Assembly (NCBI GenBank): GCA_026874595.1
Contig: CM049307.1
Location: 64,226,870 to 64,290,869 of the forward strand
Source of the DNA: Sipunculus nudus
Taxonomy: Eukaryota > Annelida > Sipuncula > Golfingiida > Sipunculidae
Length of the DNA: 64,000 bases
Reading direction: 5' to 3'
The notes below the pieces were generated by a model. That model had not been told where the DNA came from. It searched no databases and saw only the letters and a list, made by a program, of their open reading frames with translations. A program made the position numbers and the translations under genes. Of the stretch, positions 9,001-57,100 are shown in pieces. Every line of letters begins with the position of its first letter. The first letter of the stretch is position 1.

Positions 9001-12000
9001 ATCTGGTAGACACAGACCTAGGGTGAAAGTACATTATATATGCTGAGGTCTGTGTATAAATTTGTGTACCAAATTAATTTATTAAAACTAACAAATCAGA
9101 AACTGAAATTCACCATGACTTTCTTTGCTTGTCCAAGGCGCAGTGGTTCAGCAAGTCCAACCTGCATTTGTGCTATATGAAAGGATGAATAGAGCGCAAA
9201 CACCTCCATCAGTCCATCATCATACCTGTAGAAGAAATAGTAAATATCTGCATTTTCATACCTATAAAAGAAAAAGTTTACACCTCCATTAGTCCAACAT
9301 TGTTCCTGTAGAAGACATTAAACAGCTCCATCAGTACATAATCATACCTGTAGAAGAAATAGTAAACACCTGCATCATTACACCTGTAAAAGAGACACAG
9401 TTAACACCTGGAATATCATACCTGTAGAATAAATGGTAAACACCTGCATCTGTTCATTATCATACCTGTAGAATAAATAGTAAATGCCTGCATCAGTCCA
9501 TTATCATACCTGTTGAATAAATAGTAAATACCTGCATAATCATACTTGTAGAATAAATAGTAATCACCTGCATCATCATACCTGTGGAAGACACAGTAAA
9601 CACCTGGAATATCATACCTGTAGAATAAATAGTAAACACCTGCATAATCATACTTGTAGAAGAAATAGTAAACACCTGCATCATCATACCTGTAGAATAC
9701 ATAGTAAACGCCTGCATCAGTCCATTATCATACCTGTAGAATAAATAGAAAACACCTGCATAATCATACTTGTAGAATAAATAGTAATAACCTGCATCAT
9801 CATACCTGTAGAAAACACAGTAAACACCTGGAATATCATACCTGTAGAATAAATAGTAAACACCTGCATAATCATACTTGTAGAAGAAATAGTAAACACC
9901 TTCATCATCATACCTGAAGAAGACACAGTGAACACCTGGAATATCATACCTGTAGAATAAATAGTGAACACCTGCATAATCATACTTGTAGAAGAAATAG
10001 TAAACACCTGCATCATCATACCTGTAGATAATATAGTAAACGCCTGAATCATAATACCTGTAGGTGAAATAGTAAACTCCTGCATCTTCATACCTGTCAA
10101 TTAAATAGTAAACACCTCCATTAGTCCATCATCACACCTGTAGGAACCCAGTAAATACCTACATCAGGGGGTAAAACCTAGAATAAATGTATTTCACCCA
10201 GGTTTAACCAGTGTTTTGCAAGGGGTTTGCCCAGTTTGAAACCCAAGCTTTTACCCCATGATTATTTACTTTTATCAAATGAGACCTTTGCTAAAGCTAA
10301 GATTCCTTATGTACGGCATGCAGCATATGGCTTGCGGCATGCGGAATGCTAAGATTTCTTATGTACAGAATGTAGCATGCAGCATGCGTGAACTTCTGAG
10401 AAATTTTATGTGGCATACATACTAAATATTTTCTTTTCTCATGCTTCCAGCTTGCACAATGGATCACATAACATTTATATTTGGTGAAGCCTAAATACTT
10501 TAATAGGCCCATACTAGGCTATATGCATGCTCACTGTTCATCCCGTCAACCCTCATCTTCCTGGCGATACTGCTCCCTATATTGATACAGAGGTCATGAT
10601 CTTGCATGACCCACTGCTCTTGGGTCATACAGAACTTGATTTTGTCTAACCAGTTCCATCAAAATTTCTTGTGTGGCTGTCAAAAACTTGGAACTTGGCA
10701 TTGTTGTGTTTGAATCTCGCGCCACACTCTGACTGGTGAATATCCACAGACTGATGGCAGTTTCCAGAATCCCCAGTCATGTATACCATGCGGGACCTTC
10801 AGAAATCGCTACCTGTAGCGATTCATAGTATATACTGATTTTATACGCATTCCGCATACTGCATGCCGATACCACATGCCATACATAAGGAATATTAGCT
10901 TTAGTTTCTTTCTGATTGGTCACACACATTTTTCTATGCTTGCAGCAAGCCAAGTGGCTCTGACTACGTTACCCCTGTCAAAAAGAAGCCTATTTGACTG
11001 ACACTTAAACTCATGTTCAAATATGCAGAACACATCACTCCAATCAATAGGAATTAAGGTAAACCAAGGAATCTGGGGTAATACCTGGATAAAACCTACA
11101 TTTTACCCAGGTGCTTTGTAAAACTTGCCAACCCATGCTATCACTATTATTAAATCAAACAAGTATTCGATATGACTAACCTTGATTCAGGACAATCCTT
11201 TCCACCAATGGCCCAAGGTCTACATCCTCCTCCCCAGCTGGCAATGTTTAACACAACTATTCCCTCGATCTCAGGTAGTGTGATCGCCTTACCATCAAGC
11301 TCAACCTGTCATACAGTCATGTATATCATAATTCATTAACATGTTGTTTAACACAACAATTTCCTTAACCTCATTTAGTGTGATCGCCTTACCATCAAGC
11401 TCAACCTGTCATCACACAGTCATGTATATCATAATTCATTAACATGTTGTTTAACACAACAATTTCCTCAATCTCAGGTAGTGTGATCGCCTTACCATCA
11501 AGCTCAACCTGTCATCACACAGTCATGTATATCATAATTCATTAACATGTTGTTTAACACAACAATTTCCTCAATCTCAGGTAGTGTAATCGCCTTACCA
11601 TCAAGCTCAACCTGTCATCACACAGTCATGTATATCATAATTCATAAACATGTTGTTTAACACAACAATTTCCTCAATCTCAGGTAGTGTAATCGCCTTA
11701 CCATCAAGCTCAACCTGTCATCACACAGTCATGTATATCATAATTCATTAACATGTTGTTTAACACAACAATTTCCTCAATCTCAGGTAGTGTGATCGCC
11801 TTACCATCAAGCTCAACCTGTCATCACACAGTCATGTATATCATAATTCATAAACATGTTGTTTAACACAACAATTACCTCAATCTCAGGTAGTGTAATC
11901 GCCTTACCATCAAGCTCAACCTGTCATCACACAGTCATGTATATCATAATTCATTAACATGTTGTTTAACACAACAATTTCCTCAATCTCAGGTAGTGTG

Positions 12001-15000
12001 ATCGCCTTACCATCAAGCTCAACCTGTCATCACACAGTCATGTATATCATAATTCATTAACATGTTGTTTAACACAACAATTTCCTCAATCTCAGGTAGT
12101 GTAATAGCCTTACCATCAAGCTCAACCTGTCATCACACAGTCATGTATATCATAATTCATTAACATGTTGTTTAACACAACAATTTCCTCAATCTCAGGT
12201 AGTGTAATGGCCTTACCATCAAGCTCAACCTGTCATCACACAGTCATGTATATCATAATTCATAAACATGTTGTTTAACACAACAATTTCCTCAATCTCA
12301 GGTAGTGTGATCGCCTTACTATCAAGCTCAACCTGTCATCACACAGTCATGTATATCATAATTCATAAACATGTTGTTTTACACAACAATTTCCTCAATC
12401 TCAGGTAGTGTAATAGCCTTACCATCAAGCTCAACCTGTCATCACACAGTCATGTATATCATAATTCATAAACATGTTGTTTAACACAACAATTTCCTCA
12501 ATCTCAGGTAGTGTGATCGCCTTACCATCAAGCTCAACCTGTCATCACACAGTCATGTATATCATAATTCATTAACATGTTGTTTAACACAACAATTTCC
12601 TCAATCTCAGGTAGTGTGATCGCCTTACCATCAAGCTCAACCTGTCATCACACAGTCATGTATATCATAATTCATAAACATGTTGTTTAACACAACAATT
12701 TCCTCAATCTCAGGTAGTGTAATCGCCTTACCATCAAGCTCAACCTGTCATCACACAGTCATGTATATCATAATTCATAAACATGTTGTTTAACACAACA
12801 ATTTCCTCAATCTCAGGTAGTGTAATCGCCTTACCATCAAGCTCAACCTGTCATCACACAGTCATGTATATCATAATTCATTAACATGTTGTTTAACACA
12901 ACAATTTCCTCAATCTCAGGTAGTGTGATCGCCTTACCATCAAGCTCAACCTGTCATCACACAGTCATGTATATCATAATTCATTAACATGTTGTTTAAC
13001 ACAACAATTTCCTCAATCTCAGGTAGTGTAATCGCCTTACCATCAAGCTCAACCTGTCATCACACAGTCATGTATATCATAATTCATAAACATGTTGTTT
13101 AACACAAAAATTTCCTCAATCTCAGGTAGTGTAATCGCCTTACCATCAAGCTCAACCTGTCACCACACAGTCATGTATATCATAATTCATTAACATGTTG
13201 TTTAACACAACAATTTCCTCAATCTCAGGTAGTGTGATCGCCTTACCATCAAGCTCAACCTGTCATCACACAGTCATGTATATCATAATTCATAAACATG
13301 TTGTTTAACACAACAATTTCCTCAATCTCAGGTAGTGTAATCGCCTTACCATCAAGCTCAACCTGTCATCACACAGTCATGTATATCATAATTCATAAAC
13401 ATGTTGTTTAACACAACAATTTCCTCAATCTCAGGTAGTGTAATCACTTTACCATCAAGCTCAACCTGTCATCACACAGTCATGTATATATCATGAAAAT
13501 GTTCAACCCACATTTAACTTTAAAATTTGACTGTTGTGGGAGTGATCAAACAATTATTGCTTAATTTCTAAAAATTCAGTGTCATACAAGACTGTCTTGT
13601 ATAAAAAAATATTTTCCATACTGATTCCATTTAAAAGTAGATAAAATTAAGTCTCAGCAGGTGAAGAAAACTGATATTTGCAAAGACTTCACATACCTTG
13701 ACCTTTTTTTCAAGGTGCTTGCATTCTCTCTCCAGAGTGTCTTTGGTTCCATAAATGAAATACCAGAACTGAAATTGCAAAATTGACACCAAGCATGATA
13801 ATACTGACTTCTCATAACTAGGGCATGATATCGCCTGAAATTTTGTATTGCGATATACTGCAATATATGGTGGCGTATTGTGATACATATTGCGGTATTT
13901 TCATTGTATTAAGCATGTAATACATAGTATATTATACTTTGTTGACAATGCCCAAAGAAATCTTCAAAATAAAACTTTTCTTGATGCCTTAGATCATGTG
14001 CAAATAACTCAGCAATTTAAGACTTCTGGACTGTGGTTTAGCACAGAGAGGTATTGGTGATGTGTACAATGTACCACATTTGGCTACGAAAAAGAAGTTG
14101 TAGTAAAATTATATTTATTAATATGCCTTTATGGTTAACAAAGAGTTACACACCACTGTTTGCACAAAAGGCAGTGCAAAATACAACATAACATTTAAAT
14201 AAAACTTGAATATAGTTATGAAAGATTTTGTCAGGGAATGAAATACACCAGATGGATGGACAGACAGACAGGAAAGACAAATAGGTTGTCATGGCAAAAT
14301 TGATCCCCCCCCCCTCCATTTCAAAGTCAGAAGTTAGGAAACTAGGGATAACATTGTATCCATTATGAATGAAACTATATAATGTTATGAAAATACAGAG
14401 AAATTAGCTACTTAGCATGGCAAGAGACTTTTTCCATCACTTACTTTACACGAAAAGGGTTTCTAGCTTTGATGGATGTGAAATGTTGCCGTTTCTTGGA
14501 CATCCAGACGTACGGCTGATGGAGGGTCATGACACACCAACAGCAGAAGTAAAAACACTGACGGTTAATCTAAGTGCAGATAAAACTACACAATTCATGA
14601 CCTCCATGTTCATTTTATTTACTTACTTTGTTTACAACTCTGCTACCAAACAAGGCAGGTCTGGATTCCCTGTGCTTGTGGAAGTTTAACGTCACCAGGG
14701 CGTCCACACCTATAGAGCAGTAGTTGTTCATCACCATGGTTTTACGTGGCATACGGATACCAAAGTGCACAGCTGGAGTCACCTGCACCTTCCATCTGAA
14801 ATGTAAGGATATAGAAACTCACTGCCAGAGAATTCTCTTGTAGGTACTTTTGATAAATACATGATAATGCAGACAGGTTGTGATTTCTATAAATATTCTT
14901 ACAAAATTTCTTTAACATGTAGAAATTCTTTCAAACAAATTAAAATCATACAGGGAAGTTTACTCTCATCCAATCTCACAGGATTCTTCAAAAGAGAGAG

Positions 15001-18535: not shown

Positions 18536-20330
18536 CTAGAAATAAGAAAAAGCATACGCCATTGACAAAATACCATGAAACCAGTAACAGACCTGCTAAC
18601 TTGAAATAAATGTATTTATAAGCAGTTCTGACAAAAAACAAGTGACAATTGGGTCATGGCGCTCAGCCAACTGACATGTTGACAATACGTCCTTGCACAT
18701 GTTGGCAAGTAATTAAGATGGTGTAGTTGGGATCATCATTTATGCATATTAGCTAAACTTCATCCAGACCTATAAGCACACCAAATTTAATAACAAGCCA
18801 TCCAGCATTTCCTGGTAAATCTCGTAATTTGTATATACTTGTTACAATATTTCTGGGGTGCTCAAACATGCCCTGTAACTCAAAGAATATAGGTCACAGT
18901 GACCTAATTTCAGGTTTTGTAGAAGAACTTTTGAGGAACTCTCAGGATGCAGAGGTTCATGATTCTAGCCTTTACAGGTATGATTTGTGCCTTGTTAACA
19001 GACCAAGTGTTCTGAAAAATGCAGGTAAAAAATTAAAAAAATTAAGAAAATGCAGGTAGCACCACCATTCAAGCCCAGTAGCTAAGGTTCATTAAGACCC
19101 ATAAGCACACAAATTCTAATGACAATTCATCAAGCTGTTGTTGAGGAATCTTGAAATTAGTGTGCATTTTTTAATTATTCTGGGGGGGTGGGGGTTAAAA
19201 GGCTCCGTAACTCCTAATTTCACTTTCAGTCAGCTGAGCTAAAAAGGCAGGATCATCCCCTCAACTTTGGTTTCAACATCTTAACTTATTTGATCCCATA
19301 TAAGGAATTTAGCTTCAAATAAAATGCTTTCCTTCTGCTGTTAATAAATATTTATCTATGAACATTCATAAATTTACAGAATGTAACTATTCAACCTATT
19401 TTAAATAAAACCCCGCCAGAACATTTTTATTCTACTAATAACTACAGATACCATACAAAGAGTATTGTTAGATGTATACTGTAAGTCGATCATAATTCAT
19501 ATCCATTAAATTGTTGTTTATCTCACCATTAAGGACCCCAACCTAAAATAATATAAGGGGGGGGGGGGGGTTGGGGCAGTCTGGCTAATCTCAATGAAGG
19601 CAGCTATCGAGAACATCTGGGGGATGAGCCACACTGGATTAAAGGTACAACAGTTGAAGTGATTTATAATCAAAGGAGTAGGGTTCAGGGAAGCATTGCA
19701 CTGAAGTGGGAGCATAGGGGCAGCAGCCCGCCCATACGTGTAAAATATTCATGCAAAAGGCTATGGACTAATACTTATGGTCTTGGGTCTTCACATTAAG
19801 GCAAGCTTTTCAGACTGATCTATTCATCCATGGAAATTCACCTCACTGAACTCATATTGGGCAAAAAAAAAGTTCTTTGTTTCAGATTACATAAAAAAAA
19901 AAAAATGGAACGATCATAAACTGCACAAATATGTGATGGTGGAAAGATTGATCGACAGTTACAAGCACAATGTCCTCTAGTTCTGTTACACCCTATCTTG
20001 GTGAACAGTTCCTGTTTGTTTAATTTGTCTATTCCAGTGTATGATCTATACTCTTAAGTACCGGCATGTCATTGTCAGTACATGTATATCCTTCTGTATT
20101 CCACAGCTGCATGGTTACCTTTGTCTACAACCATGCAACCCCTAATATTTAAACATTTCATCATGAACTTGTTTAAAACACCATATGTAGTAACAGCATC
20201 CACATGTCCTCACTGGCAGGTCTGTATTCTCCGGTATAGAGAATCATTGGCAAAGTGGAATATTGCAGATAAATTAATCATGATTAATATCCTGCCCTGC
20301 TTGATGTTAACCTTAAGACTTTAACCTTTT
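18536..20330. other. DGKE upstream region with a pair of diverged dispersed repeats
   Basis: Upstream of the DGKE start codon. Two related segments (about 18755-18930 and 19080-19230) share ATAAGCACAC and TGTAACTC-type blocks; they look like copies of one old dispersed repeat. A 14-base G run is at 19557-19570. No coding exon was recognised. Since the DGKE ATG follows an acceptor, part of this stretch is probably a 5' UTR intron. Confidence 0.45.
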
Positions 20331-36100: not shown

Positions 36101-39100
36101 TAACAGGTGGACAGGAGTTGTGGAATGGACTGTAGTATTTGATAAAATAGCATTTTATCCAGATATAATTTAAGTGTTTAGCTGGTATTTACTTTATGTG
36201 TACATTGACTTGATATTGATATATTAAAGAAGCTATGATGTAATCTGTCTTTACAGTGTTCTCAGAAGGCGGTATCAACCAAGTTGAAATGTTGTTCAGA
36301 TGTAATTACCTAGCACTTGTTGGTGGAGGAAAGTCCCCAAAATACCCACCAAACAAAGGTAAGGATTCCACAGCAATACTTCTCAGCTGGTTATGTAAAA
36401 ATAGCCTCCAAACAACAGTAAGGATTTCACAGCAATACTACTAGGCTGGTTATGTAAAAATACCCACCAAACAACAGTTAGGATTCCACAGCAATACTAC
36501 TAGGCAGGTTATGTAAAAATAGCCACCAAACAACAGTAAGGATTCCACAGCAATACTACTAGGCTCGTTATGTAAAAATAGCCTCCAAACAACAGTAAGG
36601 ATTTCACAGCAATACTACTAGGCTGGTTATGTAAAAATAGCCACCAAACAACAGTTAGGATTCCACAGCAATACTACTAGGCAGGTTATGTAAAAATAGC
36701 CACCAAACAACAGTAAGGATTCCATAGCAATACTACTAGGCTGGTTATGTAAAAATAGCCACCAAACAACAGTAAGGATTCCACAGCAATACTACTAGGC
36801 TGGTTATGTAAAAATAGCCACCAAACAACAGTAAGGATTCCACAGCAATACTACTAGGCTGGTTATGTAAAAATAGCCACCAAACAACAGTAAGGATTCC
36901 ACAGCAATACTACTAGGCAGGTTATGTAAAAATAGCCACCAAACAACAGTAAGGATTCCATAGCAATACTACTAGGCTGGTTATGTAAAAATAGCCACCA
37001 AACAACAGTTAGGATTCCACAGCAATACTACTAGGCAGGTTATGTAAAAATAGCCACCAAACAACAGTAAGGATTCCATAGCAATACTACTAGGCTGGTT
37101 ATGTAAAAATAGCCACCAAACAACAGTAAGGATTCCACAGCAATACTAATAGGCAGGTTATGTAAAAATAGCCACCAAACAACAGTAAGGATTCCACAGC
37201 AATACTACTAGGCTGGTTATGTAAAAATAGCCACCAAACAACAGTAAGGATTCCACAGCAATACTACTAGGCTGGTTATGTAAAAATAGCCACCAAACAA
37301 CAGTAAGGATTCCACAGCAATACTACTAGGCTGGTTATGTAAAAATAGCCACCAAACAACAGTAAGGATTCCACAGCAATACTACTAGGCTGGTTATGTA
37401 AAAATAGCCACCAAACAACAGTAAGGATTCCACAGCAATACTACTAGGCTGGTTATGTAAAAATAGCCACCAAACAACAGTAAGGATTCCACAGCAATAC
37501 TACTAGGCAGGTTATGTAAAAATAGCCACCAAACAACAGTAAGGATTCCACAGCAATACTACTAGGCTGGTTATGTAAAAATAGCCACCAAACAACAGTA
37601 AGGATTCCACAGCAATACTACTAGGCTGGTTATGTAAAAATAGCCACCAAACAACAGTAAGGATTCCACAGCAATACTACTAGGCAGGTTATGTAAAAAT
37701 AGCCACCAAACAACAGTAAGGATTCCACAGCAATACTACTAGGCTGGTTATGTAAAAATAGCCACCAAACAACAGTAAGGATTCCACAGCAATACTACTA
37801 GGCAGGTTATGTAAAAATACCCACCAAACAACAGTAAGGATTCCACAGCAATACTACTAGGCAGGTTATGTAAAAATAGCCACCAAGCAACAGTAAGGAT
37901 TCCACAGCAATACTACTAGGCTGGTTATGTAAAAATAGCCACCAAACAACAGTAAGGATTCCACAGCAATACTACTAGGCAGGTTATGTAAAAATAGCCA
38001 CCAAACAACAGTAAGGATTCCACAGCAATACTACTAGGCAGGTTATGTAAAAATAGCCACCAAACAACAGTAAGGATTCCACAGCAATACTACTAGGCTT
38101 GTTATGTAAAAATAGCCACCAAACAACAGTTAGGATTCCACAGCAATACTAATAGGCTGGTTATGTAAAAATAGCCACCAAACAACAGTAAGGATTCCAC
38201 AGCAATACTAATAGGCAGGTTATGTAAAAATAGCCACCAAACAACAGTAAGGATTCCATAGCAATACTACTAGGCTGGTTATGTAAAAATAGCCACCAAA
38301 CAACAGTAAGGATTCCACAGCAATACTACTAGGCGGGTTATGTAAAAATAGCCACCACACAAGAGTAAGGATTCCACAGCAATACTACTGGGCGGGTTAT
38401 GTAAAAATAGCCACCAAACAACAGTAAGGATTCCACAGCAATACTACTAGGCTGGTTATGTAAAAATAGCCACCAAACAACAGTAAGGATTCCACAGCAA
38501 TACTACTAGGCTGGTTATGTAAAAATAGCCACCAAACAACAGTAAGGATTCCACAGCAATACTACTAGGCAGGTTATGTTAAAAAAGCCACCAAACAACA
38601 GTAAGGATTCCATAGCAATACTACTAGGCTGGTTATGTAAAAATAGCCACCAAACAACAGTTAGGATTCCACAGCAATACTACTAGGCAGGTTATGTAAA
38701 AATAGCCACCAAACAACAGTAAGGATTCCATAGCAATACTACTAGGCTGGTTATGTAAAAATAGCCACCAAACAACAGTAAGGATTCCACAGCAATACTA
38801 CTAGGCAGGTTATGTAAAAATAGCCACCAAACAACAGTAAGGATTCCACAGCAATACTACTAGGCTGGTTATGTAAAAATAGCCACCAAACAACAGTAAG
38901 GATTCCACAGCAATACTACTAGGCAGGTTATGTAAAAATAGCCACCAAACAACAGTAACGATTCCACAGCAATACTACTAGGCTGGTTATGTAAAAATAG
39001 CCACCAAACAACAGTAAGGATTCCACAGCAATACTACTAGGCTGGTTATGTAAAAATAGCCACCAAACAACAGTAAGGATTCCACAGCAATACTACTAGG

Positions 39101-42100
39101 CTTGTTATGTAAAAATAGCCACCAAACAACAGTAAGGATTCCACAGCAATACTACTAGGCTGGTTATGTAAAAATAGCCACCAAACAACAGTAAGGATTC
39201 CACAGCAATACTACTAGGCAGGTTATGTAAAAATAGCCACCAAACAACAGTAAGGATTCCACAGCAATACTACTAGGCAGGTTATGTAAAAATAGCCACC
39301 AAACAACAGTTAGGATTCCACAGCAATACTACTAGGCTGGTTATGTAAAAATAGCCACCAAACAACAGTAAGGATTCCACAGCAATACTACTAGGCAGGT
39401 TATGTAAAAATACCCACCAAACAACAGTAAGGATTCCACAGCAATACTACTAGGCTGGTTATGTAAAAATAGCCACCAAACAACAGTAAGGATTCCACAG
39501 CAATACTACTAGGCTGGTTATGTAAAAATAGCCACCAAACAACAGTAAGGATTCCACAGCAATACTACTAGGCAGGTTATGTAAAAATAGCCACCAAACA
39601 ACAGTAAGGATTCCACAGCAATACTACTAGGCAGGTTATGTAAAAATAGCCACCAAACAACAGTTAGGATTCCACAGCAATACTACTAGGCTGGTTATGT
39701 AAAAATAGCCACCAAACAACAGTAAGGATTCCACAGCAATACTAATAGGCAGGTTATGTAAAAATAGCCACCAAACAACAGTAAGGATTACAAAGCAATA
39801 CTACTAGGCAGGTTATGTAAAAATAGCCACCAAACAACAGTTAGGATTCCACAGCAATACTAATAGGCTGGTTATGTAAAAATAGCCACCAAACAACAGT
39901 TAGGATTCCACAGCAATACTACTAGGCTGGTTATGTAAAAATAGCCACCAAACAACAGTAAGGATTCCACAGCAATACTACTAGGCTGGTTATGTAAAAA
40001 TAGCCACCAAACAACAGTAAGGATTCCACAGCAATACTACTAGGCTGGTTATGTAAAAATAGCCACCAAACAACAGTAAGGATTCCACAGCAATACTAAT
40101 AGGCTGGTTATGTAAAAATAGCCACCAAACAACAGTAAGGATTCCACAGCAATACTACTAGGCAGGTTATGTAAAAATAGCCACCAAACAACAGTTAGGA
40201 TTCCACAGCAATACTAATAGGCTGGTTATGTAAAAATAGCCACCAAACAACAGTTAGGATTCCATAGCAATACTACTAGGCTGGTTATGTAAAAATAGCC
40301 ACCAAACAACAGTAACGATTCCACAGCAATACTACTAGGCTGGTTATGTAAAAATAGCCACCAAACAACAGTAAGGATTCCACAGCAATACTACTAGGCT
40401 GGTTATGTAAAAATAGCCACCAAACAACAGTAAGGATTCCACAGCAATACTACTAGGCAGGTTATGTAAAAATAGCCACCAAACAACAGTAAGGATTCCA
40501 CAGCAATACTACTAGACTGGTTATGTAAAAATAGCCACCAAACAACAGTAACGATTCCACAGCAATACTACTAGGCTGGTTATGTAAAAATAGCCACCAA
40601 ACAACAGTAAGGATTCCACAGCAATACTACTAGGCTGGTTATGTAAAAATAGCCACCAAACAACAGTAAGGATTCCACAGCAATACTACTAGGCTTGTTA
40701 TGTAAAAATAGCCACCAAACAACAGTAAGGATTCCACAGCAATACTACTAGGCTGGTTATGTAAAAATAGCCACCAAACAACAGTAAGGATTCCACAGCA
40801 ATACTACTAGGCAGGTTATGTAAAAATAGCCACCAAACAACAGTAAGGATTCCACAGCAATACTAATAGGCTGGTTATGTAAAAATAGCCACCAAACAAC
40901 AGTTAGGATTCCACAGCAATACTACTAGGCAGGTTATGTAAAAATAGCCACCAAACAACAGTAAGGATTCCACAGCAATACTACTAGGCTGGTTATGTTA
41001 AAATAGCCACCAAACAACAGTAAGGATTCCACAGCAATACTACTAGGCTGGTTATGTAAAAATAGCCACCACACAACAGTAAGGATTCCACAACAATACT
41101 AATAGGCTGGTTATGTAAAAATAGCCACCAAACAACAGTAAGGATTCCACAGCAATACTACTAGGCTGGTTATGTAAAAATAGCCACCAAACAACAGTAA
41201 CGATTCCACAGCAATACTACTAGGCTGGTTATGTAAAAATAGCCACCAAACAACAGTTAGGATTCCACAGCAATACTAATAGGCTGGTTATGTAAAAATA
41301 GCCACCAAACAACAGTTAGGATTCCACAGCAATACTACTAGGCTGGTTATGTAAAAATAGCCACCAAACAACAGTAAGGATTCCACAGCAATACTACTAG
41401 GCTGGTTATGTAAAAATAGCCACCAAACAACAGTAAGGATTCCAAAGCAATACTACTAGGCAGGTTATGTAAAAATAGCCACCAAACAACAGTTAGGATT
41501 CCACAGCAATACTAATAGGCTGGTTATGTAAAAATAGCCACCAAACAACAGTTAGGATTCCACAGCAATACTACTAGGCTGGTTATGTAAAAATAGCCAC
41601 CAAACAACAGTAAGGATTCCACAGCAATACTACTAGGCTGGTTATGTAAAAATAGCCACCAAACAACAGTAAGGATTCCACAGCAATACTACTAGGCTGG
41701 TTATGTAAAAATAGCCACCACACAACAGTAAGGATTCCACAGCAATACTAATAGGCTGGTTATGTAAAAATAGCCACCAAACAACAGTAAGGATTCCACA
41801 GCAATACTACTAGGCAGGTTATGTAAAAATAGCCACCAAACAACAGTTAGGATTCCACAGCAATACTAATAGGCTGGTTATGTAAAAATAGCCACCAAAC
41901 AACAGTTAGGATTCCATAGCAATACTACTAGGCAGGTTATGTAAAAATAGCCACCAAACAACAGTTAGGATTCCACAGCAATACTACTAGGCTGGTTATG
42001 TAAAAATAGCCACCAAACAACAGTTAGGATTCCACAGCAATACTACTAGGCAGGTTATGTAAAAATAGCCACCAAACAACAGTAAGGATTCCACAGCAAT

Positions 42101-45100
42101 ACTACTAGGCTGGTTATGTAAAAATAGCCACCAAACAACAGTAAGGATTCCACAGCAATACTACTAGGCTGGTTATGTAAAAATAGCCACCACACAACAG
42201 TAAGGATTCCACAGCAATACTAATAGGCTGGTTATGTAAAAATAGCCACCAAACAACAGTAACGATTCCACAGCAATACTACTAGGCTGGTTATGTAAAA
42301 ATAGCCACCAAACAACAGTAAGGATTCCACAGCAATACTACTAGGCTGGTTATGTAAAAATAGCCACCAAACAACAGTAAGGATTCCACAGCAATACTAC
42401 TAGGCTTGTTATGTAAAAATAGCCACCAAACAACAGTAAGGATTCCACAGCAATACTACTAGGCTGGTTATGTAAAAATAGCCACCAAACAACAGTAAGG
42501 ATTCCACAGCAATACTACTAGGCAGGTTATGTAAAAATAGCCACCAAACAACAGTAAGGATTCCACAGCAATACTAATAGGCTGGTTATGTAAAAATAGC
42601 CACCAAACAACAGTTAGGATTCCACAGCAATACTACTAGGCAGGTTATGTAAAAATAGCCACCAAACAACAGTAAGGATTCCACAGCAATACTACTAGGC
42701 TGGTTATGTAAAAATAGCCACCAAACAACAGTAAGGATTCCACAGCAATACTACTAGGCTGGTTATGTAAAAATAGCCACCACACAACAGTAAGGATTCC
42801 ACAGCAATACTAATAGGCTGGTTATGTAAAAATAGCCACCAAACAACAGTAAGGATTCCACAGCAATACTACTAGGCTGGTTATGTAAAAATAGCCACCA
42901 AACAACAGTAACGATTCCACAGCAATACTACTAGGCTGGTTATGTAAAAATAGCCACCAAACAACAGTTAGGATTCCACAGCAATACTAATAGGCTGGTT
43001 ATGTAAAAATAGCCACCAAACAACAGTTAGGATTCCACAGCAATACTACTAGGCTGGTTATGTAAAAATAGCCACCAAACAACAGTAAGGATTCCACAGC
43101 AATACTACTAGGCTGGTTATGTAAAAATAGCCACCAAACAACAGTAAGGATTCCAAAGCAATACTACTAGGCAGGTTATGTAAAAATAGCCACCAAACAA
43201 CAGTTAGGATTCCACAGCAATACTAATAGGCTGGTTATGTAAAAATAGCCACCAAACAACAGTTAGGATTCCACAGCAATACTACTAGGCTGGTTATGTA
43301 AAAATAGCCACCAAACAACAGTAAGGATTCCACAGCAATACTACTAGGCTGGTTATGTAAAAATAGCCACCAAACAACAGTAAGGATTCCACAGCAATAC
43401 TACTAGGCTGGTTATGTAAAAATAGCCACCACACAACAGTAAGGATTCCACAGCAATACTAATAGGCTGGTTATGTAAAAATAGCCACCAAACAACAGTA
43501 AGGATTCCACAGCAATACTACTAGGCAGGTTATGTAAAAATAGCCACCAAACAACAGTTAGGATTCCACAGCAATACTAATAGGCTGGTTATGTAAAAAT
43601 AGCCACCAAACAACAGTTAGGATTCCATAGCAATACTACTAGGCAGGTTATGTAAAAATAGCCACCAAACAACAGTTAGGATTCCACAGCAATACTACTA
43701 GGCTGGTTATGTAAAAATAGCCACCAAACAACAGTTAGGATTCCACAGCAATACTACTAGGCAGGTTATGTAAAAATAGCCACCAAACAACAGTAAGGAT
43801 TCCACAGCAATACTACTAGGCAGGTTATGTAAAAATAGCCACCAAACAACAGTAAGGATTCCACAGCAATACTACTAGGCTGGTTATGTAAAAATAGCCA
43901 CCAAACAACAGTAAGGATTCCACAGCAATACTACTAGGCAGGTTATGTAAAAATAGCCACCAAACAACAGTAAGGATTCCACAGCAATACTACTAGGCAG
44001 GTTATGTAAAAATAGCCACCAAACAACAGTAACGATTCCACAGCAATACTACTAGGCTGGTTATGTAAAAATAGCCACCAAACAACAGTAAGGATTCCAC
44101 AGCAATACTACTAGGCAGGTTATGTAAAAATAGCCACCAAACAACAGTAAGGATTCCACAGCAATACTACTAGGCTGGTTATGTAAAAATAGCCACCAAA
44201 CAACAGTAAGGATTCCACAGCAATACTACTAGGCAGGTTATGTAAAAATAGCCACCAAACAACAGTAAGGATTCCACAGCAATACTACTAGGCAGGTTAT
44301 GTAAAAATAGCCACCAAACAACAGTAAGGATTCCACAGAAATACTACTAGGCAGGTTATGTAAAAATAGCCACCAAACAACAGTAAGGATTCCACAGAAA
44401 TACTACTAGGCTGGTTATGTAAAATAGCCACCAAACAACAGTAATGATTTCACTGCAATACTACTAGGCTGGTTATGTAAAAATACCCACCAAACAACAA
44501 TTAGGATTCCATAGCAATACTACTAGGCTGGTTATGTAAAAATAGCCACCAAACAACAGTAAGGATTCCACAGCAATACTACTAGGCAGGTTATGTAAAA
44601 ATAGCCACCACACAAGAGTAAGGATTCCACAGCAATACTACTAGGCTGGTTATGTAAAAATAGCCACCAAACAACAGTAAGGATTCCACAGCAATACTAC
44701 TAGGCAGGTTATGTAAAAATAGCCACCAAACAACAGTAAGGATTCCACAGCAATACTACTAGGCAGGTTATGTAAAAATAGCCACCAAACAACAGTTAGG
44801 ATTCCACAGCAATACTAATAGGCTGGTTATGTAAAAATAGCCACCAAACAACAGTAAGGATTCCACAGCAATACTACTAGGCTTGTTATGTAAAAATAGC
44901 CACCAAACAACAGTAAGGATTCCATAGCAATACTACTAGGCAGGTTATGTAAAAATAGCCACCAAACAACAGTAAGGATTCCACAGCAATACTACTAGGC
45001 AGGTTATGTAAAAATAGCCACCAAACAACAGTAAGGATTCCACAGCAATACTACTAGGCTTGTTATGTAAAAATAGCCACCAAACAACAGTAAGGATTCC

Positions 45101-48100
45101 ACAGCAATACTACTAGGCAGGTTATGTAAAAATAGCCACCAAACAACAGTTAGGATTCCAAAGCAATACTACTAGGCTTGTTATGTAAAAATAGCCACCA
45201 AACAAACGGTAAGGATTCCACAACAATACTACTAGGCTGGTTATGTAAAAATAGCCACCAAACAACAGTAAGGATTCCACAGCAATACTACTAGGCTGGT
45301 TATGTAAAAATAGCCACCAAACAACAGTAAGGATTCCACAGCAATACTACTAGGCAGGTTATGTAAAAATAGCCACCAAACAACAGTTAGGATTCCACAG
45401 CAATACTACTAGGCAGGTTATGTAAAAATAGCCACCACACAAGAATAAGGATTCCACAGCAATACTACTAGGCAGGTTATGTAAAAATAGCCACCACACA
45501 AGAGTAAGGATTCCACAGCAATACTACTGGGCGGGTTATGTAAAAATAGCCACCAAACAACAGTAAGGATTCCACAGCAATACTACTAGGCAGGTTATGT
45601 AAAAATAGCCACCACACAAGAGTAAGGATTCCACAGCAATACTACTGGGCGGGTTATGTAAAAATAGCCACCAAACAACAGTAAGGATTCCACAGCAATA
45701 CTACAGGGCGGGTTATGTAAAAATAGCCACCAAACAACAGTAAGGATTCCACAGCAATACTACTAGGCTTGTTATGTAAAAATAGCCACCAAACAACAGT
45801 AAGGATTCCACAGCAATACTACTAGGCTGGTTATGTAAAAATAGCCACCAAACAACAGTAAGGATTCCACAGCAATACTACTAGGCAGGTTATGTAAAAA
45901 ATGGCCACCAAACAACAGTAAGGATTCCACAGCAATACTACTAGGCAGGTTATGTAAAAATAGCCACCAAACAACAGTAAGGATTCCACAGAAATACTAC
46001 TAGGCAGGTTATGTAAAAATAGCCACCAAACAACAGTAAGGATTCCACAGCAATACTACTAGGCAGGTTATGTAAAAATAGCCACCAAACAACAGTTAGG
46101 ATTCCACAGCAATACTACTAGGCAGGTTATGTAAAAATAGCCACCAAACAACAGTAAGGATTCCACAGCAATACTACTAGGCTGGTTATGTAAAAATAGC
46201 CACCAAACAACAGTAAGGATTCCAAAGCAATACTACTAGGCAGGTTATGTAAAAATAGCCACCAAACAACAGTTAGGATTCCACAGCAATACTAATAGGC
46301 TGGTTATGTAAAAATAGCCACCAAACAACAGTTAGGATTCCACAGCAATACTACTAGGCTGGTTATGTAAAAATAGCCACCAAACAACAGTAAGGATTCC
46401 ACAGCAATACTACTAGGCTGGTTATGTAAAAATAGCCACCAAACAACAGTAAGGATTCCACAGCAATACTACTAGGCTGGTTATGTAAAAATAGCCACCA
46501 CACAACAGTAAGGATTCCACAGCAATACTAATAGGCTGGTTATGTAAAAATAGCCACCAAACAACAGTAAGGATTCCACAGCAATACTACTAGGCAGGTT
46601 ATGTAAAAATAGCCACCAAACAACAGTTAGGATTCCACAGCAATACTAATAGGCTGGTTATGTAAAAATAGCCACCAAACAACAGTTAGGATTCCATAGC
46701 AATACTACTAGGCAGGTTATGTAAAAATAGCCACCAAACAACAGTTAGGATTCCACAGCAATACTACTAGGCTGGTTATGTAAAAATAGCCACCAAACAA
46801 CAGTTAGGATTCCACAGCAATACTACTAGGCAGGTTATGTAAAAATAGCCACCAAACAACAGTAAGGATTCCACAGCAATACTACTAGGCAGGTTATGTA
46901 AAAATAGCCACCAAACAACAGTAAGGATTCCACAGCAATACTACTAGGCTGGTTATGTAAAAATAGCCACCAAACAACAGTAAGGATTCCACAGCAATAC
47001 TACTAGGCAGGTTATGTAAAAATAGCCACCAAACAACAGTAAGGATTCCACAGCAATACTACTAGGCAGGTTATGTAAAAATAGCCACCAAACAACAGTA
47101 ACGATTCCACAGCAATACTACTGGGCTGGTTATGTAAAAATAGCCACCAAACAACAGTAAGGATTCCACAGCAATACTACTAGGCAGGTTATGTAAAAAT
47201 AGCCACCAAACAACAGTAAGGATTCCACAGCAATACTACTAGGCTGGTTATGTAAAAATAGCCACCAAACAACAGTAAGGATTCCACAGCAATACTACTA
47301 GGCAGGTTATGTAAAAATAGCCACCAAACAACAGTAAGGATTCCACAGCAATACTACTAGGCAGGTTATGTAAAAATAGCCACCAAACAACAGTAAGGAT
47401 TCCACAGAAATACTACTAGGCAGGTTATGTAAAAATAGCCACCAAACAACAGTAAGGATTCCACAGAAATACTACTAGGCTGGTTATGTAAAATAGCCAC
47501 CAAACAACAGTAATGATTTCACTGCAATACTACTAGGCTGGTTATGTAAAAATACCCACCAAACAACAATTAGGATTCCATAGCAATACTACTAGGCTGG
47601 TTATGTAAAAATAGCCACCAAACAACAGTAAGGATTCCACAGCAATACTACTAGGCAGGTTATGTAAAAATAGCCACCACACAAGAGTAAGGATTCCACA
47701 GCAATACTACTAGGCTGGTTATGTAAAAATAGCCACCAAACAACAGTAAGGATTCCACAGCAATACTACTAGGCAGGTTATGTAAAAATAGCCACCAAAC
47801 AACAGTAAGGATTCCACAGCAATACTACTAGGCAGGTTATGTAAAAATAGCCACCAAACAACAGTTAGGATTCCACAGCAATACTAATAGGCTGGTTATG
47901 TAAAAATAGCCACCAAACAACAGTAAGGATTCCACAGCAATACTACTAGGCTTGTTATGTAAAAATAGCCACCAAACAACAGTAAGGATTCCATAGCAAT
48001 ACTACTAGGCAGGTTATGTAAAAATAGCCACCAAACAACAGTAAGGATTCCACAGCAATACTACTAGGCAGGTTATGTAAAAATAGCCACCAAACAACAG

Positions 48101-51100
48101 TAAGGATTCCACAGCAATACTACTAGGCTTGTTATGTAAAAATAGCCACCAAACAACAGTAAGGATTCCACAGCAATACTACTAGGCAGGTTATGTAAAA
48201 ATAGCCACCAAACAACAGTTAGGATTCCAAAGCAATACTACTAGGCTTGTTATGTAAAAATAGCCACCAAACAAACGGTAAGGATTCCACAACAATACTA
48301 CTAGGCTGGTTATGTAAAAATAGCCACCAAACAACAGTAAGGATTCCACAGCAATACTACTAGGCTGGTTATGTAAAAATAGCCACCAAACAACAGTAAG
48401 GATTCCACAGCAATACTACTAGGCAGGTTATGTAAAAATAGCCACCAAACAACAGTTAGGATTCCACAGCAATACTACTAGGCAGGTTATGTAAAAATAG
48501 CCACCACACAAGAATAAGGATTCCACAGCAATACTACTAGGCAGGTTATGTAAAAATAGCCACCACACAAGAGTAAGGATTCCACAGCAATACTACTGGG
48601 CGGGTTATGTAAAAATAGCCACCAAACAACAGTAAGGATTCCACAGCAATACTACTAGGCAGGTTATGTAAAAATAGCCACCACACAAGAGTAAGGATTC
48701 CACAGCAATACTACTGGGCGGGTTATGTAAAAATAGCCACCAAACAACAGTAAGGATTCCACAGCAATACTACAGGGCGGGTTATGTAAAAATAGCCACC
48801 AAACAACAGTAAGGATTCCACAGCAATACTACTAGGCTTGTTATGTAAAAATAGCCACCAAACAACAGTAAGGATTCCACAGCAATACTACTAGGCTGGT
48901 TATGTAAAAATAGCCACCAAACAACAGTAAGGATTCCACAGCAATACTACTAGGCAGGTTATGTAAAAATAGCCACCAAACAACAGTAAGGATTCCACAG
49001 CAATACTACTAGGCAGGTTATGTAAAAATAGCCACCAAACAACAGTAAGGATTCCACAGAAATACTACTAGGCAGGTTATGTAAAAATAGCCACCAAACA
49101 ACAGTAAGGATTCCACAGCAATACTACTAGGCAGGTTATGTAAAAATAGCCACCAAAGAACAGTTAGGATTCCACAGCAATACTACTAGGCAGGTTATGT
49201 AAAAATAGCCACCAAACAACACTAAGGATTCCACAGCAATACTACTAAGCTGGTTATGCAAAATATACCCACCAAAAAAACTTAAAAGATACAACAGCAG
49301 TACTACTTGGCTGGTTATGTAAAAGTACCCACCAAATGAATTTAAAGATAACACAGCAATACTGAGTCGATTATGCAAACATGAGATTTATCATTTTATA
49401 TGATATAATTACGCTCTTTACACAGCGCTTTAACTATAGGCCTACTCCCTATATCATAAGTGCTGTTTGTTATGACCTCATATCCTGAATTGCTACACCA
49501 GGGGGGAGCACTGTATTCTCGTCCAATCAGATGAGACCTTGTGCTGGAAGACAAGGCCAAGCGAGGAATACATGGAGCCAATCATGTTCATTTCATTTTG
49601 AGTGACAGCTCATTGCCCCGGTAACCATCTGAATAGGCCACAGGCTCAAAGAGAATTGCCCCAAACATGGATTGCTTAGGGCCTTGGGCACATAGGATGC
49701 CCGGCCGGTGAATTGTAATTCAAACGAAACATAACAACAAAGGCTGCGTGCACACCTCGCTGGCTGGTTTTGTACTGCAGACAACAGATACATGGCTACA
49801 CTAACACAGTCATAATGTCATAATCGAATCGGTCAATAATGTGAGAATACAGAGGGAGCAATTAAAATTCAACCGTGAACTCTCATCAAGCGGCACTTGA
49901 AGGGCAGCTATCAGCTGAGCCAGGATGCCTGTTAAGTGTTTGTTTATTGGCATCTGGTTGGCTGCTTGTCACATCATACGCATGTTTTTTTCAGTGGACA
50001 ACGAACAGCCATCTGGTGTTTAAATATATCATAAACGGTCAAAGCTGGCAGCGTGAAAATCAGTTGCTTCTTTAGAAGCGCAAGATTTCCACTGCCTCGG
50101 GAGCGTATGATGTAATATGATTAATATGAGTGATGAATTACAAATATATTAGTTTCTTAATAAAATCCGAAGAGATTTGATAGTTCAAAATACAGAAAAC
50201 TCCCAGTCCATCCCCACTTCTACAATTCCTGGGCATTGCACTGCTGTACATACAGCTTCTGGAAATTAGTTTTGCTTTTGACAGTTATGGTATGGGATGA
50301 CCTGAAGAAAAAGCATGTGATAGAACTAGAGTTCAGCAGTGAAGTCAGAGGGGTCCGATTACGACGAGATCGGTAAGTGTATTATGTACTGGGAATGTGT
50401 ACCTTAAATGTCTTAAACACTTGTTTAGTCTCGATCTCTTTTAAAATAATGGTTTATTGCATATCATCAACTGTACTGTTAAAGTGTTACCAGTGTTTTA
50501 TATATAGAAATTCTGCTTTGCAGTAATGAAAAGTCTGTGTATCAAGTATACATAAATACACCAACCAGTTTATCAGAGAAATTAAACATTACAGATATTT
50601 AGAAATATCTGAGACAATCTTGTAGGTTGTAACCATGGAAACATGAGATGTTTGTTTCAATTCCTAATTTTCTGATATGTTAATCATACTTTTCATTACT
50701 GGCCACCCATTTGGTGGTCCCTTTTTTGGATGTTTCATTGATAGGAATAGGGTTGGGTATTTTTTTTAAATTTGTATACCATATCTAACTCAAGGATTGA
50801 CAGTATGCTTGTTTTTTTTTCAGGATAGTTGTGGTGCTAGATTCCATGATCAAGGTGTATACATTCACACAGAATCCTCAGCAGTTACATGTATTTGAAA
50901 CATGTCCTAACACTAAAGGTGAGCAGATGTTGTGGCATCACACATGCATTTGTTAGATGTTTGTATACCTAGGCATTGCATCATCCCCATCACAGACATT
51001 ATTTGATGATTCCCACTGTATTTATTTAGATAGGTCCATGGCCACCTGATGGCACTGTCTGTTGAATAAGAGTTGTGGTAACTGTACAATAAGCTTGAGT

Positions 51101-54100
51101 ATTGTCTTTATTAAGACTGCTTGATTTCAGGCATTAAATGTATGGGGCCAGGAATAATACAGAAGTCCTTTCCTGTGATTGAGACCAAGGAGATTACAGA
51201 CTGGAGTATCAAGTGAGAGTCTGGCCGTGTCGAATGTTGCTGATGGGGGGTCATAAAACTCCCTGCTCAAAGGCACACAGAGATGTGGCTGATAAGCCTG
51301 GCGCTAATTGATACCGAGAGATCCCCCTTCAGCTTGACTTCGGAACATCTCGGTAATTCCCAGCTGCGGTAAACATGGGCGATAATGCGAGAACAACGCC
51401 GTCAGTGACTGAGCGGGCGATGGCTCACTGTTATCCATCAAAATGAAAGTCATCTGGTCATAAACGTTAAAATATTTAGTTATCAAGGGAATACTATAAT
51501 AAAAGGCTAATTATTAACATGTCAGAAGTATGGGGACTGATGTAAATTTTAATAATTCTGAAGTTTTTCAGGGAAAGAAAGGTTTACTTTTACCAGTCGT
51601 CCGTCATGAGTCACAGTAGAAGTTGATGCAGAGTGACAGCATCTATCCCAAAATCCATCCAGTGATTCTTCAACACAAGACCTCTCTAGATATATTTGTA
51701 ACACATAATTCTTGACAAAACAAACCATTTGCACATTAATAATTCCGGTCAATGTTATTCCAGTGATTTACTGCTCAGTTACTGGATATATTGCTGTCTG
51801 CTTCAGCGAGCTACAGCGGACAGCGAAAGTAACATCTAACAAACTCGCTTTATCAAAGGCCGTGCCGCCGCTGCGTCTGATACCACGGCACAATAGGTGC
51901 ACAAAAGAGGGCTTATCAGGTCTTAATTGCAATTAGCGCACAACTGACACTCAAGGCTTCTGACAGTTGATACTCCAGTCTGTAATCTCCTTGTTAAGAC
52001 ATCAGAAAGAATCTCAAAGGTTCCGGTGAGCTTTTGTAACATTGTGTTCTTGAGGCGCCGGCAGGGATTTTACCAGGGACCTTCAGTCCCATAACCCAAC
52101 GCTGTACTATCCTTGACAAACAGAAAACTCGTGTAAACTTAGGTGTTTGGTTGCATATTTATGGAGGGTGGACAGTCACTATATGCAAAGTGCCCTTTGC
52201 AAAAACTCTGGCTGTCTGACTTGCCATTAGATGTTCTTGTTGAATGTTATTGGATTATTTTGGCAGGTACCCCAAATGATATAAGCAAGTGGATATAACT
52301 AAAATGAACAGCCTTTGTCCTCTGGGATTGCAGTTTTCTGGCCTATTTTAACAAAAGGTTCAGGGGATTATCTTCATTTAACAGACATTGAATATCAGAA
52401 TAGGCCACTTTAAGTGATAGTTATTAAGTGTGAGAAAATATTGTGATTTTATATTACATCTTCATTCTTTTCATAAAACTTCACAGTACAGGCTCCATGT
52501 TTAATGATTTCCATGCTGTTTGTATGATGATATTATGTGTTGACATCCATGCTCAGTGTATAACATTATAATATGCTGATATCTATTGTGTTGTAGGTTT
52601 ATGTGTATTATGTCCAAACAGCAACAACTCCTTGTTAGCTTTCCCGGGAAGGAAGGTGGGCCATGTACAGATAGTGGACCTTGCTAACACAGAAAAGCCA
52701 CCGTTAGACATTGCTGCGCATGAAGCAATGCTATGTTGTATATCGCTAAACCTGCAGGGTACAAGACTAGCCACAGCGTCTGAAAAGGTGAGAATGCGGA
52801 AACAGTCAAAGGAAATTATCGACAATACGTCATTTTTACCAGTTTCATTTCTTTATATCATGTTCCTATTTAGCTCTTTGACAGTTGAAAGTATTTTATT
52901 TTAGAATCTTGGTTCAGCCAGGTTGTTATTGTGTGTGGATTATTTACACATTTCTAACAGCTTAACCTTAATATAATTCAAGACCATGTAAGTATATACA
53001 GTCATAATATTAAAGTTGAGTTAATTTTTCCTCTGAAGATTATAAAAACAGGGTCTGAAACTCATTGTTGCTGTTGTTACAGTATTTTAATTCTGTGTCA
53101 CTAAATAAGAACAATGTAACGGTCTGTATAGGATCTCATAAAAAAACTGACACAAAATGAGAAAACTGCAAGTGAATGATACAAAAATCTTTATGTATGA
53201 ATGATAACTGCTGTTGGTACAATCCTGCTGTACATTTTGTTTTTTAGGGCACTTTGATACGGGTGTTTGACACAGCAAGTGGTTCTCAGTTACAGGAGCT
53301 CAGGAGAGGTGCTAATAATGCTGTTATATACTGGTCAGTGACACACTCTCATGGTCAAATTACTCACTTGATAAGACCTCTTGTTCAGTTTTAAATCATA
53401 TATTCACTTGTTCAGACCAGTGTTGCCCCAGATGAGAGTAGGGATAGTTTATCACAGCTCTGAGTATTATGCTGAAGCACATTAACTGCCAGTATAGTTC
53501 ACTTATTCATATGTCTATCAGAAACCTGCACTCTAAGGAATGCAAACCCCTGCAAATGGGTCGTCCCTGTTGTGGGTTGTTCCCAAAACCATTTTGCATT
53601 CACTTGTTATGCCCATATTCCCTAGTTCATTAGTGCTTAAGTGACTGTACATTTGTTAATATTCCTTAATGACGTTCCTGAATGCAGATCATGTTCTGGA
53701 TCCACACCAAAATCTAACCCATTCTTCAATGCATTGAAAATTTAATGAGATTTGATGGAGTTGTGTTGTGAAAAAAGTCAGAGACACATACAAACCTGAC
53801 TCCTCCTGGTGAAGAGTTTCATTCTCAGTAGTCCGACCTGCAGTACATTTTGTAATTTGCTGGTATTTTTTTTTACTGTATAGCTGTATATTTTGCAGAA
53901 CTATTAATCTAAGAAATGTATTACAGTACATTAAAGTTGTTGTGAAGTAAGATGACCCCTTATAGCTCAGTCAAGACAGTTATTCTATATTTTCTGTTGT
54001 GTCAAGCTGTAAATTACTTTTTAGTCACAGTCGAAATTCAGAGTAAGCTGCCTGGTATGAAAAGTGCCTATGTACACAGTTGACATTAGATTTTGTTATT

Positions 54101-57100
54101 TATGCTTTCACGCTGAGGATTGCATATTTTTGTCCAGCTGGGAAAGTGTGAGTCATTCTAAAACCTCTCATGTTTACTATTAGTAATTCAGACTTTTTGT
54201 TAAATTACTTAGCTGGTATTGTTGTTATTCATAAATATGTCTTTCCTCAGCATCAGTTTCAACCAGGATTCCACGTTGCTCTGTGTATCCAGTGACCATG
54301 GAACAGTTCATATTTTTGCTGTGGATGATCAGAAGAAAAATAAACAGTCCAGGTCAGTTCATTAAGTTTGAAAAAATAAAAACAATTCATGATGGTTTAT
54401 TAAGATCAAAAGTAAATAATCAAGGTCAGTGTATTTAGATGGAAAGTAAACAGTCCAGGTCAGTTCAGTTTATTAAGATTGAAATTAAAAGTCCAGGTCA
54501 GTTCATTAAGACTGAAAATAAACAGGCCAGGTCAGTTTATAATATTGTAAATGAACTATCCACGCCAGTTGATTAAGATGAAAAAAAAACTGTCAAGGCC
54601 AGTTCAGTTTATAAATCTTGAAAATAAATAGACCAGGTCAGTTTCTTAAGATTGAAAATAACAGTCCAGGTCTATTAATTTTATCAATGAGAATTGTCTC
54701 CATCAATATGTCAACCAAGTTCAAACATTTGTGTCCTTGACCCTGGTAGCCTGGGCCTTGTCAGGTGTTAGTATATGCTTCTGAAGAAGGGGGCCTGTTT
54801 TAGAATGTGGTATGCTTTAATTGTCTTGGGATATTATGGCATCTCCAGTGCTAAGAAATTTCTAGTTAATTGCATTTAAAAGATATTAATAGTCCAGGTC
54901 AGTTTATTAAGATAGAAAATAAAGGCATATTTTCTCTCTTTAATAGTACAGGTCTCAAAACTCCAAGTCAGTAGACTGTGACAATTTGCATGCAGTGGTA
55001 ATGACACCCTGCCACATAACAAGCTGTACCTTAATAAATAAAGATTGTGTTATCTGCTGTACTTTGCCCAAGTAACTTTCATCGATTATTAAAAAAGAGG
55101 CCTTTTGTTCATTTCAGCCTAGCATCAGCCAGCTTCCTGCCAAAATATTTCAGTTCCAAGTGGAGTTTTTCCAAGTTCCAGGTGCCCGGTAATTCCCAGT
55201 GTATCTGTGCCTTTGGTTCGCAGTCCCCACCTGATGTGAATTCTGTGATAGGTAAGTAGCTGGGTGGATTACCTGTTCTTTATTGGTGTTCTTAACAGAT
55301 GAGCACCTGTTCCATGTTTAGCTCAGCTGACTGAAAAATAACAGAGATATAATGATGGGTCTTTGTCCATCGGCCGTCCATCAGTAGGGCAGAAGTTGTA
55401 AGTGTAAGGGCTAGGATCATGAAACTCTGTATTATCAGAGATTCTATAAGGATCACCTTGGAAACCTGAATTGAGTTCTCTGTGGCCTATATTCTGTGAG
55501 TTACAAGGTGTGTTTCAGCATACCAGAAATAATATAAATACATACAAATGGCCTGATGTTTCAAGTTAGCCATGATCAGTTGTTCCTGAAATCAGGTTGC
55601 CAGAAGATCTTGGATAGCTTTTTCTTGTACTGAAGACCAGTAATGCCACCTGTGATCCTGAAAATTTGTGCTTATACCACAGTTACTGCCACAAATATGT
55701 GTATTATAAGCTTTTTTAGCTCAGCTGACTTTCAGTCATGCTGAGCTATAGCGATCACTTTTAGTCCGTCATCCGTCTGTCCGTCTGTCTGTCCGTTAAC
55801 CAGGCACAAATCGTAACAGCTGGACCTAGAATCTTGTAACTTGACATTCTGAGAGGTCCATGAAAAATATCCTTGGAATCAGAAATTAGGTCTCTGTTAC
55901 CCATATCCTTCGAGCTATGGGGCCCCAAAGTACCCCCCAGAGTAGTGAAAAATTTCATACAAAAACTTCAATATTTCATTAACTACATCAGTGATGGTCA
56001 TGATTTTTGGCATGCATATTGATCATGAAATGTTCCATCAGTTCCTGCAGACTGGTGGCGCCACCTGTATTTTTCGATTTTTTACGAATTTTTTTCTCTA
56101 TTTTTGAGACCTTTAAAAATGTGGACATCTGTTAACAGGGCACAAATCGTAAAGACTGGACCTAGAATCTTGTTACTTGACATTCTGAGAGACCTATGAA
56201 AAGTCTCCATGGAAACCAGAAATTAGGTCTCTGTTACCCATATCCTTTGAGCTATGGGGCCCCAAGTACCCCCCAGAATAATGAAAAATTTCATGCAAAA
56301 ACTTCAATATCTCATTAACTACATCACTGATGGTCATGATTATTGGCATACATATTGATCATGGGATGTTTCATCAGTTTCTACAGACTGGTGGTGCCAC
56401 CTGTATTTTTCACATTTTTACAATTTTTTTCATGCAAAAACTTCAATATCTCATTAACTACATCACTGATGGTCATGATTATTGGCATACATATTGATCA
56501 TGAGATGTTTCATCAGTTTCTGCAGACTGGTGGCGCCACCTATATTTTTAGATTTTTTATGAATTTTTTTCTTTATTTTTGAGACCTTTAAAGATATGAA
56601 CATCTGTTAAAAGGGCACAAATCATAACAACTGGACATAGAATCTTTATTCTTTCACACAGGGAGATCCATGAAAAATCTCCATGGAAACCTGAAATTAG
56701 GTCTCTGTTACCCATATCCATAAAGTTGTATGGCTCCAAAATACCCCCCAGAATAATGAAAAATTTGATACAAAAACTCCAGTATCTCAATAACTACAAC
56801 ACTGATGCTCATGATTTTTGGCATACATATTGATCATGACATGTTCCATCAGTTTCAGCAGACTGGTGGAGCCACCTGTATTTTTTTTTATGGGGCTTCA
56901 GCTGAATGGTTATATACTACCATTCAGATGATAAAATTTCCTTTTGCAATTCTCTTCCCAGTCAGCTGAGTGTCATGACCCATGGGTGACTTGTTTTTTA
57001 TTTGCATCTGTTTCACAAGACATCTTTTGATCCTGAATCATCCTTTTTCAGCCAACCCGAATTGAAAGCATATCACATAAAACACTACACCTTTGAGTTA

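Follow-up and report, generated by a model that had tools for sequence, protein, structure and literature searches.

The 64,000-nucleotide stretch of Sipunculus nudus DNA analysed here (the window) raises the question of why four tandem arrays, spread over two genes, are built from units that contain an exon edge together with its splice site, and whether such arrays are placed at junctions more often than chance allows. The preliminary description had named the genes as DGKE and WDR45B, and both identities stand, the first by Pfam DAGK_acc, DAGK_cat and C1 matches and the second by matches to structures of WIPI3 (=WDR45B). TRF, direct reading of the sequence and placement of the junctions likewise bear out the four arrays as real, with the exon edge inside the unit in 4/4.

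Four arrays in DGKE and WDR45B

The features concerned are the following:

9198..10121, minus strand: DGKE exon 7 acceptor array, 36/44-bp unit (TRF and sequence reading)
11245..13489, minus strand: DGKE exon 6 acceptor array, 103-bp unit (TRF and sequence reading)
36339..49336, plus strand: WDR45B exon 3 donor array, 59-bp unit (TRF and sequence reading)
54337..54672, plus strand: WDR45B exon 8 donor array, 34-39-bp unit (TRF and sequence reading)
54880..54925, plus strand: lone detached WDR45B exon 8 unit, deeper in the intron (direct reading)

The working acceptor of DGKE exon 7 lies at 9226|9225 (-), and its unit joins about 16 nt of intron end to 20-28 nt of exon start (minus strand: ...CTACAG|GTATGATGATG...). 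TRF reports 21 copies of 36 bp at 9337-10121, diverged units occupy 9226-9336 beyond the TRF row, and the AG is intact in 19 of 24 junction-core copies. For DGKE exon 6, with its working acceptor at 11306|11305 (-), there are 21.8 copies of 103 bp (TRF), each composed on the minus strand of 43 nt of intron (...GACAG|) followed by 60 nt of exon, and every one of the 21 junction-core copies retains the AG. The WDR45B exon 3 array comprises 220 copies of 59 bp over 13 kb (TRF); the unit takes in about 20 nt of exon and 39 nt of intron, through ...AAAG|GTAAGG..., and the working donor is 36358|36359 (+). Its GT is intact in 213 of 220 junction-core copies, all 213 of which score lower as donors than the working site. 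The WDR45B exon 8 array has about 10 copies of 34-39 bp (TRF), a working donor at 54352|54353 (+), a unit holding ...CCAG|GTCAGT... and an intact GT in 6 of 9 junction-core copies.

Reading frame and conserved protein are satisfied by the copy adjoining the exon. The protein was rebuilt with this exon-proximal site, for instance PPN-K-VM.WDD over WDR45B exons 3 and 4. The claim that AG|GT is present in all four seeds holds for the four working junctions but not for most WDR45B exon 3 copies: the majority of the 220 read ACA|GTAAGG, so that AGGT is not kept in this array. The earlier figure of about nine window arrays of at least three units is right after exclusion of low-complexity and very short runs (TRF). 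Among the small-unit arrays of the window, 4 of 7 cross a junction against 0.20-0.31 expected (P 6e-5 to 3e-4), an expectation that assumes 30-45 junctions in a post hoc test on the discovery set itself. Between DGKE exons 4 and 5, an open stretch with acceptor and donor signals lies at 14445-14515 (-); the conserved DGKE protein is complete without it.

Junction arrays in other genes of the assembly

Beyond the window, 54 other gene pieces (289,000 bases) were sampled from the same 1.43-Gb assembly, in which the window lies on contig C2. The pieces were chosen by exon density from protein-hit tables for myosin, kinesin, ubiquitin hydrolase and tyrosine phosphatase domains, and their sequence was fetched afterwards, in two batches. 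Batch 1 took 29 of the 31 clusters in the PF00063 and PF00225 tables that held at least three hits within 10 kb; the remaining two were moved to batch 2 (C2:52602754 as a whole, C1:22911932 in part). Once batch 1 had been analysed, batch 2 was hand-picked from the PF00102, PF00443 and PF00225 tables, its own sequence still unseen; it omitted at least four three-hit PF00102 clusters among the PF00102 matches listed.

TRF rows with a period below 20, a score below 100, fewer than 1.9 copies or an overlap were dropped before the main count, L035 1950 was merged into L035 2100, and six base units were reset by eye, three of the six slightly too low. The small-unit class (unit 17-120 bp, at least 2.4 copies) has a size cut chosen once the data were known. 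Whether an array crosses was judged by eye from printed sequence with exon placement and splice models, and junctions and copies were later located by script; L006 1962 and L024 1078 are junction-related in appearance, yet were scored as non-crossing. The crossing arrays (piece and position, gene strand) are:

L004 1769, L005 3188, L006 1176, L018 2701, L024 3974, L024 4915, L026 2228
L030 1844, L035 2100, L035 4320, L037 1512, L041 2318, L042 1, L051 3223

Over the 54 pieces, 14 of 27 small-unit arrays thus cross an exon-intron junction against 2.55 expected (Poisson P 5e-7), given about 225 kb of non-coding sequence and 618 junctions, a total that is itself an estimate and includes 126 exons assumed absent from the tables. 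Corrected unit lengths change the expectation to 2.59 (P 6e-7), and 1000 assumed junctions instead of 618 raise it to 4.1 (P 1e-4). Both batches contribute, with 7/18 crossing in batch 1 (1.60 expected) and 7/9 in batch 2 (0.95 expected). The crossing rate among small-unit arrays is apparently about half, some five times expectation, and window and sample together give 10 arrays at donors and 8 at acceptors. When all 39 arrays of any unit size are counted, 14 cross against 9.4 expected (P 0.09), an excess that is weak because units above 120 bp never cross (0/9, with 6.2 expected). Leaving out the four of these large-unit arrays whose units recur elsewhere gives 14 against 5.8 (P 0.003); the units of L021, L037 5564 and L039 match many other places and that of L003 two others (40 of 8396 candidates scored).

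Applied per position to 62 complete introns, an echo test gave no excess: at 26/30 identity, echoes stood at 3 of 124 junctions and at 13 of 372 intron positions drawn at random. None of the three two-copy duplications in the count crosses a junction. We hold that the echo test is inflated by copy number on the intron side, yet it still counts as a result against. The founder-based count is preferred since a many-copy array fills many intron positions but represents one birth, and since only 2 of the 14 crossing arrays sit at junctions covered by the echo test. For small-unit arrays, the excess at junctions suspected from the window therefore recurs in further genes of this genome, but it is weak over all sizes and absent in the echo test. 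In the same test, the acceptor echo at about L040 1842-1883 (gene strand) exists in two copies 41 bp apart, a possible newborn case.

The sample gives no role to AG|GT seeds. The motif stands at the working junction of 5/8 donor and 1/6 acceptor arrays (6/14), or of 10/18 arrays with the window's four included, which is about the background of 44/62 donors and 15/62 acceptors in 62 modelled introns. As AG|GT is no commoner at array junctions than in the background, it was rejected as the array seed.

Apparent local birth and relation to amphioxus mirages

Units from 16 of the 18 junction arrays match their own loci only, in a search that skips common words; the 16 queried are all but those of DGKE exon 6 and WDR45B exon 3, and each match listed falls within or beside the unit's own locus. 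The arrays consequently look like separate local births, in agreement with the preliminary description, which had taken them as separate events. A shared mobile element behind them was rejected on the same ground. Introners are dispersed intron-making elements; related copies at the junctions of many genes were not seen here, the queried units occurring only at their own loci. The units of non-junction small-unit arrays (13 in the sample, 2 in the window) also match only their own loci. Within one gene, L004 4635-4713 and 6670-7023 are two separate intronic arrays with similar 31-32-bp units. The 13 non-crossing arrays were considered as exon-edge relics and this was rejected: L047 and L020 stand out in the relic test only via units beside, not across, a junction, and L015 does so weakly (2/200 shuffles).

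Repeated expansion at existing junctions had been presented as not known to be a described genome-wide process. Such arrays already have a name in amphioxus, 'mirages', given to minisatellite-like tandem duplications over 5' or 3' exon-intron boundaries in Adh3 and the globins BflGb6 and BflGb9 (PMC3087553), with further cases in PGBD5 and TnC (PMC3902484). The amphioxus unit measures about 10-160 bp, many but not all copies carry AG/GT signals, the authentic junction lies at the exon edge, and the mechanism is called unclear, the structure being perhaps general in cephalochordates (PMC3087553). The arrays described here agree with these in boundary-spanning minisatellite units at both 5' and 3' sides and in an authentic junction at the exon edge. 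The unit spans the boundary in 4 window and 14 sample arrays, both boundary types are represented (10 donors, 8 acceptors), units measure about 30-103 bp, and all 16 queried units of the 18 junction arrays are local to their own gene. Unlike the amphioxus cases, they occur in many sampled genes, reach 220 copies and 13 kb, and come with a frequency estimate. In amphioxus the mRNA is spliced without disturbance and array length is unstable, between haplotypes or in the soma; the arrays here are known from the DNA of one assembly and from frame continuity across the exon-proximal site. The original mirage paper is said to be that of Canestro and others from 2002.

Two other systems share part of this structure. 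Human genes in segmental duplications contain internal tandem repeats at exon-intron boundaries, with 27 intron modifications (PMC2812944); the likeness is in the position of the repeats. In those young paralogues the repeats alter boundaries or create introns (PMC2812944); the arrays described here leave a conserved junction, with their copies inside an intron that already exists. Among the papers listed by literature searches, none reports mirages outside cephalochordates, molluscs included, bar these human boundary repeats. Rogers, as cited in PMC3087553, reportedly described intron gain via tandem duplication of AGGT segments, which resembles the present case as a tandem duplication of a segment with splice signals. 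It differs in that no new intron is seen here and AG|GT is not enriched at array junctions; the duplicated seed holds it in 6 of 14 sampled cases.

We read the arrays, with a probability of roughly 70%, as mirages: minisatellites founded on a segment that by chance lay across an exon-intron boundary, with subsequent growth into the intron. Birth may occur by slippage or end-joining between short imperfect repeats, and growth by unequal exchange. The spliceosome would pick the exon-proximal copy through exon definition, which is established knowledge, and the other copies would stay silent in the intron; the same duplication within an exon would be removed by selection. Since the in-frame copy adjoins the exon and fits exon definition, the tolerance of the arrays is explained, but not their excess.

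Explanations of the excess

Tolerance, offered earlier as a possible cause, fails on its own to account for the excess because wholly intronic arrays are tolerated too. For the same reason it is unlikely that minisatellites simply arise anywhere and are purged from coding sequence, the junction arrays being the tolerated ones and the window a lucky draw. The all-size count (only P 0.09) and the echo test without excess fit such a lack of positional bias, but the crossing of 14 among 27 small-unit arrays where 2.55 were expected, in pieces picked without sight of their sequence, does not, and wholly intronic arrays, equally tolerated, have far more room. An artefact of annotation or assembly, through dispersed repeats or wrong junctions, is very improbable. 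The junctions were set from DNA alone, which leaves some opening for it; against this, conserved domains guided the placement of exons, tested units match their own loci only, substitutions distinguish the copies, and no large-unit array crosses (0/9), some of these at least being dispersed.

It is distinctly unlikely that the arrays are kept for a role in splicing, as reserve or competing splice sites, or persist longer via one constrained copy. GT/AG is kept in 342 of 358 junction-core copies, plus 19/24 for DGKE exon 7, the copies having been picked by core similarity, and its diversity over 12 arrays is 0.030 versus 0.095 for whole units (permutation P 0.003); a cruder comparison finds GT/AG better kept than other columns in 14 of 16 arrays. 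These figures favour retention, but two equally central mirror columns, with a diversity of 0.083, differ less clearly (GT/AG lower in 7 arrays, higher in 2 and equal in 3), and selection of copies by junction-core similarity weighs on the comparison. Moreover, all four junction-core copies of L041 2318-2600 (gene strand) lack the donor GT, every WDR45B exon 3 copy that carries GT is weaker than the working site, and exon parts have no consistent codon pattern. Three printed L041 copies ending in AAG read GC at the donor. Coding use of the copies was rejected, the codon-position pattern being inconsistent over six arrays; DGKE exon 6 has a third-position excess (13/420 vs 9/861). Longer persistence is still a live rival because the difference in age amounts only to P 0.10 when single-unit periods are used (median copy match 87 percent in crossing versus 82 percent in other arrays). 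A comparison mixing single and multiple unit periods gave P 0.039 for crossing arrays being younger; no clear age difference in either direction separates them from the rest. At L024 3974-5170 (gene strand), two consecutive kinesin exons carry arrays, the first at its acceptor and the following one at its donor; the copies of the second array are 99 percent alike and thus very young.

We consider it rather unlikely that junctions are hot spots of slippage because of breakage linked to transcription or splicing, whether through R-loops, as the preliminary description had suggested, or through U1 or U2 particles bound there. An excess at donors and acceptors alike would suit it and nothing specific speaks against it, apart from the AG|GT motif not being enriched. 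Our preferred cause of the excess, at low confidence, is recombination that high heterozygosity would restrict to exons and that would stop at their edges. In a very heterozygous genome, allelic homology might be high in exons and drop at their edges; template switching and unequal exchange would thus concentrate there and could produce the excess. Amphioxus is also very heterozygous. The wider proposition, that exon edges in this lophotrochozoan are genome-wide hot spots of minisatellite birth and expansion, affecting about 2% of junctions (14 of an estimated 618) since highly diverged haplotypes would recombine only within exons, recombination failing at the borders, is conceivable but doubtful. 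If true, mirages would be a general signature of hyper-diverse genomes, and the splice sites they duplicate would steadily feed the growth and gain of introns. Should the excess prove genome-wide, a structure described gene by gene in lancelets would be a common, measurable product of genome change in another phylum, and many ongoing splice-site duplications would make the question of intron growth and origin directly testable. Gene annotators would also have to be cautious about arrays of decoy splice sites.

Several other features were seen in the window and the sample. Downstream of the final DGKE exon found, long overlapping open frames at 3625-8719 (-) resemble a retroelement that has a reverse transcriptase and perhaps a tyrosine recombinase, presumably DIRS-like. 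Large-unit tandem repeats containing GGTGGCGCCACC lie at 31995-33139 and 55795-56885; the 280-bp unit of the former is nearly the same as that of L039 6186, which matches many contigs. The segment at 51188-51995, in a WDR45B intron, is bounded on either side by inverted repeats of about 26 bp and by these letters resembles a small DNA transposon. A genome search yielded no GFP and no haemocyanin beta-sandwich match, neither search having a positive control. One muscle myosin exon (NPVLEA.GNAKT.RNNNSSRF) is present in four versions at L001 2752-5663 (gene strand), an arrangement like that of mutually exclusive splicing. In comparisons with the muscle myosin exons of L001, 3i5f ranks first and 1dfk/1b7t next, above Myosin-7 chains by 6-25 bits; we take these to be the squid and bay scallop myosin structures, respectively.
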